Below are positions 11,573 through 48,537 of a DNA stretch of 51,978 nt, one piece after another. Origin of the DNA: Deltaproteobacteria bacterium (GTDB taxonomy: Bacteria; Bdellovibrionota_C; UBA2361; SZUA-149; JADLFC01); contig JADLFC010000011.1 in NCBI GenBank assembly GCA_020845775.1, forward strand, positions 1 to 51,978. The letters are read 5' to 3'. The translations under genes were made by a program, and so were the position numbers. Under the pieces are notes generated by a model. The model worked only from the letters and a program-made list of their open reading frames with translations. It did not search any database and was not told the origin of the DNA. Position 1 is the first letter of the stretch; each line of letters starts with the position of its first letter.

Positions 11573-11674
11573 GTAGTTGCTTTTCTGTAACCTAGATGGC
11601 CTGTCTGAAATAAAATGCAACATTTTAGTTGTATTTCGCGATAATATCTCGCAACGTCAATGTTGTTAATGATG

Positions 11675-11718
11675 CGGTTTTCAGAAAGTAAGTTAAATCT
11701 TCTACTTTTTGGAAAGGC
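11675..11718. repeat. Palindromic element family I, copy 1
   Basis: This 44-base element forms a hairpin. TTTTCAGAAAGTA (11678-11690) pairs with TACTTTTTGGAAA (11703-11715) with two G-T wobbles, around a loop containing GTTAAAT. It matches the element at 40862-40905 at 37 of 44 positions, including the loop. It ends 48 bases upstream of the 709-residue secreted protein gene. Confidence 0.6.
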
Positions 11719-11766
11719 TATGACGGTTCAATCACGAACGCTTGTTTTTAGGACATCGAGGGAAAC

Positions 11767-40856: not shown

Positions 40857-40910
40857 ATATACCGTTTCCAAAAAGTAAGTTAAATATTTTACTTTTTGGA
40901 AACGGTATAT
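40857..40910. repeat. Palindromic element family I, copy 2 (22-bp perfect stem)
   Basis: Arms 40857-40878 and 40889-40910 are exact inverted copies, 22 bp, around a 10-base loop containing GTTAAAT. The core CCGTTTCCAAAAAGTAAG matches copy 1 (11675-11718) at 37 of 44 positions over both arms and the loop. It lies about 160 bases upstream of the 959-residue gene. No T-run after the stem suggests it is not an ordinary terminator. Confidence 0.8.
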
Positions 40911-40943
40911 GTTGTTTATTGGCAAGTGCTTACGCACTTCCTG

Positions 40944-40984
40944 TTTATACCATTTACAAAAATTCTTTTTGCAAATGGTATAAA
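40944..40984. repeat. Palindromic element family II, copy 2
   Basis: Arms 40944-40962 and 40966-40984 pair over 19 bp with one mismatch and a 3-base loop (TTC). The right arm resembles the repeat at 2266-2290 (TTTTTGCAAATGG in both). It begins five bases after the small hairpin at 40924-40939. Confidence 0.7.
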
Positions 40985-46284: not shown

Positions 46285-48537
46285 TTATTCCTCTATGAGC
46301 TCGGCAACGAGTTCAGCAATGTCTTTTACCAAAAGGTTGCTAGATTTGTCCCTCTCCTCGCTGCCAGTGCCCGTTAACTTTACACCATCTTCAAGCATTT
46401 GCATACAAAAAGGGCATCCAGTAGCTACGACATCAACATCGGTCGCACGCGCTTCGTCGGCCCTTAGAACGTTTATTCGCTTCCCTATCTTGATGTCAAA
46501 CCAATAATGTCCGCCGCCAGCGCCACAGCAAAGCGCCCCTTCTCTCGAACGAGGCATCTCGCGGAGCGGCAACTCGCTGACGTGCTCCAAGATAGCGCGT
46601 GGCTCATCAAACGTGTCGTTATAACGCCCAAGATAGCAGGGATCGTGATAGGTGATTTTAGAAGCAAGTGGTTTAGAGAGCGAGATAAATTGGTCACGAA
46701 TTAACTCGTTAATTAACTGACTGTGGTGCAATACTATTGTTTCTCTTGGCAAGAAGGACCTATCAATTTTTGGGTATTCGTTCTTTAGCGTATTAAAGCA
46801 ATGAGGACAGGTCGCTAGGAGCATTTTGAATTTGTATGCTTTTATTGTTGCGATGTTTTTTTTTGCCTGAGACTGAAATAAATTTTCCTCTCCTAAACGC
46901 CTAGCCGAGTCGCCGGTGCAACATTCCGCGGTTCCTAATATTCCCCATTTTAGCCCGCTTGCGTTTAGTATTTTTGCCATGGCTTGGGCAATTTTTTGCT
47001 TGCGCTTGTCGAAGGCCGATACGCATCCGACCCAATAGAGCAAATCAACCTCGCTTCCAGCTTCCAATATTGGCACGTCTAAACCGTTAGTCCACTCAGT
47101 GCGAATGTGACTCGGGCCAAAGGGATTTCCTCTCGTTTCAATAGCGCGAAAACTGGCCTGTGCTTCACTTGGCAGCTTAGCCTCCATTAGAGCCATCGAG
47201 CGCCTAACATCTACAATTAAATCGACGTGTTCAATCCCCACTGGGCAAGCCTCCATGCAGGCTCTACAAGTTGTGCAAGACCAGAAAACGTCTTCATGCA
47301 TTACATCTTTAGAAATGGCTTGCGAGACGGAGGCGTGCTGATTAAAACGGCCTGAATCGAGACTTAGCGACTTAATGAGAAAACTATCTACGGCGTTAAG
47401 CTTTTGGCGAATGCCGAAAGAGGTGCCCGAAATGTCGCGTTTTGCGCCCACTTGGCCAAGTGAGCGCAAAGACAATAAGTGGTTGCGGCAGTCTAAAATG
47501 AGGTTTTTTGGCGAGAGAGGTTTACCCGATATATGTGCCGGACATACTTCCTGGCAGCGCCCGCAGGCAGTGCAGGCATCGAGATCTAGGAGCTGCTTCC
47601 ATGAAAAATTGCTAATATCTTTAATGCCGACCTGAAACTCATCATCGCCTTCCAAACTTTTTTCGATTAAAGTTTCGATGTCGCCGGGTGAGGCAAGCTC
47701 ACCTTTTTGTCTTTCTAGGTTTTGAAAGGCCAAGTTCAGACTAGAAAAAATCACGTGTGAGAGTTTGCTGTAGGGAATCAGAGCGACAAACGACAATGCA
47801 CAAACAGTATGTGACCACCAGACAAGGTAGTGAATTAGCCTAATTGTCGATTCGGAAAGTGGCCAGAGTATTAAACTAACTAAATATCCTACAGGAGAAA
47901 AAAGTGCCCAGGCGTCCTTCGTCGCATGTATGCGCAAAGCCTCTAGTGAGAAACCTTGAACGCAAAGCAGGGCAAGAAAGAGCAATACAAAGTAGTCAGC
48001 AGTTCCACTTGCTATTCTGTCGGGCTTTTCAATCATTCGCCGTCGAAAGGCGACTAGTACGCCAAACAGCAGTCCCAGGCCTAGCACATCGCTAAATACT
48101 GTAACGATTAGGTAGAATGGCCCTCGATAAATGTCGAAATTAAAGTCATGGTGAAAAAATACTATGACGGTAGTAACAAAGAGAGCAATAAACCCCAAAT
48201 ACATTGGCAGGTGAAATATTCGAGCTGCCGAATCTCGGTTAACGCGACGCTGAAGAACGACGTCGACGAAGACATTTTTAAGCCGCCTAAATACGAACTT
48301 TAGCCGACTGCGATCGGCCCTACCGCTAGCCCAAAGCTCAAGCCGACGCCATATCCCCCAAAAAAATACTAACGTCGAAACGCCAGCTAAAAAGTACATT
48401 ATAATAACATCTGGAACCGCGGGGATATTCCAGAGTATTTCTCGCGTAGCTAAGTAAATCGAACTCTCTTCCATGTCATATGCATTATCAGCAACCACAA
48501 GTTCTCGGAAAGCGCTTTTTTGACGACCCGCCATCAA
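46285..48537 (-). CDS. Membrane Fe-S oxidoreductase, HdrD/EtfD-like (NarI + ferredoxin + CCG domains)
   Basis: The 750-residue protein combines three parts. The N-terminal part has five to six membrane helices (about 43-65, 111-130, 141-166, 181-200, 213-232, 236-256) with several His residues, like the heme-binding NarI (nitrate reductase gamma) domain. Next come two [4Fe-4S] ferredoxin motifs, with Cys322/325/328/332 and Cys421/424/427/431. The C-terminal part has two CCG domains, seen as AECCTGD and GALCCGAGGGHYW with HDPCYLG. This architecture is found in proteins proposed to pass electrons from electron-transfer flavoprotein to menaquinone (EtfD-type) and in HdrD-like enzymes. No etfAB genes are in the window, so the electron donor is unknown. 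Confidence 0.85.
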   Translation of the reverse strand: MMAGRQKSAFRELVVADNAYDMEESSIYLATREILWNIPAVPDVIIMYFLAGVSTLVFFWGIWRRLELWASGRADRSRLKFVFRRLKNVFVDVVLQRRVNRDSAARIFHLPMYLGFIALFVTTVIVFFHHDFNFDIYRGPFYLIVTVFSDVLGLGLLFGVLVAFRRRMIEKPDRIASGTADYFVLLFLALLCVQGFSLEALRIHATKDAWALFSPVGYLVSLILWPLSESTIRLIHYLVWWSHTVCALSFVALIPYSKLSHVIFSSLNLAFQNLERQKGELASPGDIETLIEKSLEGDDEFQVGIKDISNFSWKQLLDLDACTACGRCQEVCPAHISGKPLSPKNLILDCRNHLLSLRSLGQVGAKRDISGTSFGIRQKLNAVDSFLIKSLSLDSGRFNQHASVSQAISKDVMHEDVFWSCTTCRACMEACPVGIEHVDLIVDVRRSMALMEAKLPSEAQASFRAIETRGNPFGPSHIRTEWTNGLDVPILEAGSEVDLLYWVGCVSAFDKRKQKIAQAMAKILNASGLKWGILGTAECCTGDSARRLGEENLFQSQAKKNIATIKAYKFKMLLATCPHCFNTLKNEYPKIDRSFLPRETIVLHHSQLINELIRDQFISLSKPLASKITYHDPCYLGRYNDTFDEPRAILEHVSELPLREMPRSREGALCCGAGGGHYWFDIKIGKRINVLRADEARATDVDVVATGCPFCMQMLEDGVKLTGTGSEERDKSSNLLVKDIAELVAELIEE

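Follow-up and report, generated by a model that had tools for sequence, protein, structure and literature searches.

A stretch of 51,978 nucleotides of bacterial DNA (here called the window) carries the same palindrome at two places, each ahead of a large open reading frame (ORF), and the question is whether these hairpins are a signal shared by two surface-protein genes or copies of something that moves. A sequence-only reading of the window had put the identity of the two 44-base hairpins at 37 of 44, and direct comparison of 11675–11718 with 40862–40905 gave the same figure. The position ahead of ORFs of 709 and 959 amino acids (aa) was likewise found as described; in Pfam searches the 709-aa ORF yielded only a sub-threshold TSP3 repeat and the 959-aa ORF no match. 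With up to 3 mismatches allowed, the core pattern matches the window exactly twice. In 100 dinucleotide-preserving shuffles of the window it never appeared (mean 0, largest 0), which rules out a chance origin of the pair.

The 44 bases originally delimited are only part of the repeat. They make up the core of a hairpin at one end of a longer element, whose true extents in the window are 40858–40984 (127 bp) and 11672–11721, both on the forward strand. The first of these is a complete copy, 96.9% identical to positions 1–127 of the family consensus, and with DNA parameters it folds 11.7 standard deviations better than shuffled sequences (z −11.7). In the 127-bp element the palindromes H1 and H3 form the two ends, and a small hairpin lies between them. 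In the window copy the left-end hairpin H1 (40857–40910) consists of two 22-nt arms (40857–40878 and 40889–40910) that are 100% complementary and enclose a 10-nt loop; the middle hairpin H2 (40922–40941, consensus positions 65–84), placed from the fold of the copy, is small and imperfect; and the right-end hairpin H3 (40944–40984, consensus positions 87–127) has arms at 40944–40962 and 40966–40984 that are 95% complementary. H1 and H3 span 39–52 bp and differ in their loops, and their outer arms, TATACCRTTT..., match each other as inverted repeats. At its 5′ foot H3 carries TTTA, the complement of the TAAA at the right border (40981–40984), which comprises the target TA and then A. The second window copy is an H1-only remnant, 84% identical to consensus positions 2–51, with a weak fold and no H3 after it. 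Of the two window hairpins, one belongs to a fresh and the other to a decayed copy of a short, parasitic piece of DNA.

The genome to which the window belongs (G000) is a draft of 2,568,238 bases in 189 contigs, 95.8% complete. When all of it was searched for the hairpin consensus with up to 3 mismatches, the H1 core matched at 150 places; the statement that the palindrome recurs nowhere else therefore holds within the window, with its two matches, but not for the genome. The H3 core, which is palindromic and so is matched on either strand, was found at 122 places, and the reversed-pattern control gave 0 in either search. Flanks were read for a sample of 116 distinct copies or pieces, drawn from 100 of the 150 H1 places and from other searches, and 90 of these are near full length (aligned over at least 110 bp), with sharp ends and differing flanks. 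Median pairwise identity, calculated from 61 copies without missing bases, is 96.8% over 125 positions. Contigs C65, C98, C102 and C132, for example, begin inside the element, and C43, C66, C122 and C129 end in one; because many contig ends fall within copies, the element is probably one cause of the assembly's fragmentation.

Hairpins also stand alone, at about 51 bp, as H1-only forms, H3-only forms and hybrids that join the left arm of H1 to the right arm of H3. Most singlets of the H1 type are not continued by GGTATTTG, the sequence that follows H1 inside the full element, and after most of them stands GGTATA..., as at the full element's right end. This continuation matches what would be expected of a deletion between the direct repeats of the two right arms; recombination or slippage between these repeats after insertion would delete the middle and leave singlets with one hairpin.

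The flanks of different copies have in common TA at both ends and TAA on the right, and the remainder varies. In the 49 gap-free copies for which both flanks are available, A follows the right-hand TA in 47, against 13 with the mirror-image T before the left-hand TA (Fisher p = 3e-13), the latter figure being at background level. The A after the right-hand TA is part of the target, not of the element, and no target duplication longer than TA stands out among the 49 copies. An empty site is also available. At locus L256 (G000:C114:3500-6500) a copy is nested in a hybrid hairpin, and removal of 123 bp leaves exactly the intact hairpin of locus L258. The nested insert has TA on both sides, flanks in which a duplicated TA and a TA carried by the element look identical, and net insertion of the 127-bp element amounts to about 123 bp plus target bases. 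Nested copies on C46, C61, C66, C101 and C132 agree with L256, with one junction each because the contig stops within the inserted copy. The element inserts at TA, its right end coming to lie beside an A, so that the target is TAA read in one direction, and we infer that its integration is directional. Within a single genome the family runs from fresh copies by way of singlets to decayed copies, with the empty site of one insertion and the direction of the target both known. It displays unusually well the way in which hairpin elements of this sort insert, decay and maintain matching arms.

The element is dispersed in about 150 copies, nearly all of them intergenic. Very probably it is a non-autonomous, palindrome-ended mobile element of 127 bp, which a transposase would move in trans and which deletion and template switching would later alter. 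The proposal of a REP-like mobile palindrome is supported as to the kind of thing, given the dispersed intergenic copies, the precise ends and the nested insertion with its empty site. The transposase acting in trans would move the element, and as this mobiliser we rank first, with some hesitation, a single-strand enzyme of the HUH kind (Y1, RAYT or IS200/IS605), given the hairpin at either end, the fixed orientation of integration and the complementarity between the TTTA of H3 and the TAAA target. A DDE transposase that duplicates TA would also leave TA on either side of the insert, which counts against the HUH step. Should the HUH reading prove right, it would link REPINs, PATEs (palindrome-associated transposable elements) and TA-ended MITEs.

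An unlikely alternative is a classical TA-inserting MITE of an IS630/Tc1-mariner-type (DDE) element, similar to RUP or Correia, whose autonomous partner has been lost or is missing from the draft. The TA flanks of the nested insert and the inverted repeats at the element's ends are features of such MITEs, and bacterial MITEs of 100–200 bp are described as mostly TA-ended in the account of PMC2229807. Correia, RUP, ERIC and CIR, as described there, resemble the element in size (about 100–200 bp), TA ends and mainly intergenic position, and CIR also in its fold of two separate long stem loops (PMC2229807). From these families, as presented there, the element differs in its directional TAA target, in the near-perfect palindrome at each end, which is complete by itself, and in that no IS630-type transposase was detected with it. 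Searches with DDE_3, the IS630-type transposase model, found no match in draft G000 or in G002, a genome of another family in the same order, and insertion is strongly directional (47/49 versus 13/49). TA-specific DDE elements are not known to show an orientation preference at TA. In the genome-contig, viral-contig and plasmid collections searched, no sequence match was seen. On present evidence the element is not an IS630-type MITE.

The DDE-type genes that came to light were considered as partners and rejected. G000 has one DDE_Tnp_1 match (C33:954-1205), apparently a remnant, which adjoins a singlet hairpin and has no other matching end; six DDE_3 loci in G007 and G010 have no matching ends either. 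At the C33 locus (L219), over bases 844–894 and those that follow, the singlet hairpin adjoins the DDE_Tnp_1 fragment and two stretches that look tRNA-like by eye.

Less probable again, and quite doubtful, is that the copies are an ordinary REP/REPIN family moved by the gene at 2–907 or its relatives. This gene, on the reverse strand and cut by the contig start, was proposed in the sequence-only reading (as an HUH transposase at 1–907) to be the mobiliser. It does encode a RAYT-like HUH protein (NCBIfam REP_Tyr_transpos E 8.8e-5, below the cut-off; Pfam Y1_Tnp E 0.072), but it has its own, different 5′ hairpin and, in the sequence read, no 127-bp element adjoins it, the nearest window copy being more than 10 kb off. 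Partial relatives of the gene lie on C36 (83% identical over 70 residues), C62 (34%), C86 and C114, and its 5′ hairpin, conserved in 4 copies, is unlike the 127-bp element. No 127-bp element was found beside the RAYT pieces on C11, C36, C62, C86 and C114 in the flanks read, some sides of which end with the contig. Several partial or decayed copies of the gene at 2–907 and its hairpin at 1025–1061 were seen at loci L075, L076 and L077. Because several such copies keep their own 5′ hairpin, the RAYT-like gene seems to be mobile in its own right, whereas RAYT genes are typically single-copy.

The element shares with REPs and REPINs its palindromes in inverted pairs, more than 100 copies (150 for H1 and 122 for H3), intergenic position and singlets, and RAYT-like genes are present in the same genome. 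The likeness to REPINs and BIMEs mobilised by RAYT, as these are outlined in PMC3116915 and PMC3733652, extends to the inverted palindrome pair as the replicating unit and to remnant singlets. Set against the REPs of these accounts, the element has the foot TTTA/TAAA without a GTAG or CGTC tag, no REPtron (in the flanks read, no cognate RAYT gene is bordered by the same repeat), hairpins of 39–52 bp and unlike loops. REPs are said there to lie mostly between unidirectional and convergent genes (PMC3116915; PMC3733652), whereas 127-bp copies are placed according to intergenic length. The PATEs of Haloquadratum, which are related to IS605-type transposons and are defined, in the description given in PMC3119063, by the absence of terminal inverted repeats, resemble the element in having palindromes near both ends and no transposase gene. 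They differ from it in that its outer arms are inverted repeats and that no parent transposon was found. Site- and strand-specific insertion that leaves no target duplication is another trait of PATEs and IS200/IS605 derivatives; for the element the target is a directional TAA, and at its border a duplicated TA and an element-borne TA look alike. Because the REP tag is absent and terminal inverted repeats are present, we file the element neither as a REPIN nor as a PATE. We read it as a new, non-autonomous, palindrome-ended element that works like both and fails a defining feature of each. A non-exhaustive literature search, judged by titles and abstract openings, produced no description that we recognised as this family.

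Relatives of the element were sought in 96 genomes, own genome included, the relatives among them all belonging to other families. Relatives of MetH are 54–62% identical and are distributed across phyla. The 127-mer matched in three of the 96: G000 itself; G084, where the match has no comparable hairpin; and G002, where it led to a sister element. Across the 15 genomes of the order, the right-end 18-mer had 308 matches in G000, 24 in G002 and 0–2 elsewhere, with controls of 0 or 1 (0 for G002). The G002 elements are about 400 bp long, with shorter forms beside them, and their ends (left TATACCGTACGC..., right ...GCAAATGGTATA) each lie within a palindrome in the better preserved copies. The G002 element shares the plan of the 127-bp element and has a different middle. 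At the G002 loci L222–L247 (for example L242, L244 and L247) the repeat of about 400 bp is a mosaic with several internal palindromes, and its ends resemble those of the 127-bp element. By our reading, T follows the right-hand TA in 10 of 16 distinct G002 copies. The H1 core pattern had 0 matches in each of the genome-contig, viral-contig and plasmid collections.

Matches to Y1/HUH models number 2 in G000 and 9 in G002 and are present in 12 of the 15 genomes of the order, against only 2 genomes with the element. Y1/RAYT-like matches in the order reach 9 in a single genome, and many of them lie in open frames of about 320–370 aa. Only one G002 contig contains a Y1 match as well as an end match, and about 31 kb separate the two. 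An autonomous partner was also sought as pairs of ends 0.3–3 kb apart, which, as far as inspected, were known copies or the 400-bp elements of G002, and the stretches examined, a minor part of the genome, contained no transposon, of the IS605 type or other, that shares the element's ends. Lone right ends at L250 and L252, and a left end on C67 that runs into other sequence, were rejected as traces of a partner; they adjoin ordinary genes. The gene beside the C67 end is presumably Fic-like, judging by a motif.

The complementarity of the H3 foot TTTA to the TAAA target recalls the guide sequences of IS200/IS605 elements, which PMC8266576 places 5′ to each palindrome. It is conceivable, if somewhat unlikely, that in this family, from a bacterial lineage that has been little sampled, the right hairpin carries its own guide, TTTA pairing with TAAA, so that a single-strand HUH enzyme integrates the element directionally at TAA, and that template switching during replication repeatedly restores the match between the arms and turns the loops round. 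The guide idea serves as a lead only, because the rule in G002 differs and its long and short forms show no separation of the kind that the supposed guide predicts. If this combined reading were true, the roughly 150 copies would serve as natural replicates for studying how bacteria maintain palindromes.

The arms themselves bear on the template-switching step, in which switching within hairpins would re-match arms and invert loops. Compensated arm changes, in which both partners of a pair depart from the consensus and can pair nonetheless, were counted in 88 copies, omitting the four outermost H3 pairs, which overlap the target. Compensated cells number 29 and fall into 12 kinds; in 2000 shuffles the means were 4.4 cells and 1.4 kinds (maxima 10 and 5). 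Another 64 cells are uncompensated. A single change, 93/121, makes up 17 of the 29 and may be inherited from one event, and 5 of the 12 other cells belong to one diverged copy, C36:27331. Inverted loops were found in 4 of the 88 copies for H1 and in 4 of the 88 for H3. Near base 1300 of L256, the nested copy has an H3 that is much diverged yet retains perfect pairing, which again points to re-matching of the arms. PMC8794818 names multiple compensations together with inverted loops as marks of template switching in hairpins. The cases described there are RNA genes followed along phylogenies, whereas here the likeness is seen among near-identical mobile copies in one genome. The co-varying arms and inverted loops are as template switching would leave them, in counts that make no correction for the relatedness of copies; alternatively, arm co-variation might arise through selection for pairing, for example by a transposase. 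Covariation in repeated hairpins is no proof of a functional RNA, since template switching can produce it as well (PMC8794818).

Placement was assessed on 62 interior copies, the 116 sampled minus 54 near the edge of a contig or stretch. By ORF calls that are crude, 15 of the 62 overlap an ORF of at least 80 aa. Five of these 15 ORFs are longer than 170 aa, and four of the five are touched at their last 21–30 bases only, the fifth (C121:51973) near its 5′ end. With a second ORF set, 32, 17 and 11 copies lie between tandem, divergent and convergent genes, where intergenic length predicts 36.6, 15.1 and 8.3 (p = 0.44), and relative to tandem genes 16 copies have the same and 19 the opposite orientation. 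In a crude test, an N-terminal hydrophobic segment was found in 15 of 64 facing genes and in 63 of 189 other genes (Fisher p = 0.16). The copies are placed as random intergenic insertion predicts, with no preference for genes of secreted or membrane proteins. It is extremely improbable that surface-protein genes share the hairpin as a cis-regulatory element in DNA or RNA, a reading favoured by the position of both window copies and by the high stability that the hairpins would have as RNA: facing genes show no excess of hydrophobic segments, intergenic length accounts for placement, orientation is near even, one of the two window copies is decayed, and all 27 Rfam matches (E up to 5, mostly to microRNA models) fall below their gathering scores. 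The roughly 150 intergenic copies and the null result for facing genes speak against a control signal for surface-protein genes. The copies ahead of the two such genes in the window would have no regulatory role there and would owe their position to the tolerance of intergenic gaps for insertions. What seemed a regulatory motif of two genes turns out to be a high-copy mobile element. The window also contains an imperfect 17-nt palindrome at 47441–47470, which lies inside a 750-aa ORF and is unrelated to the 127-bp family.
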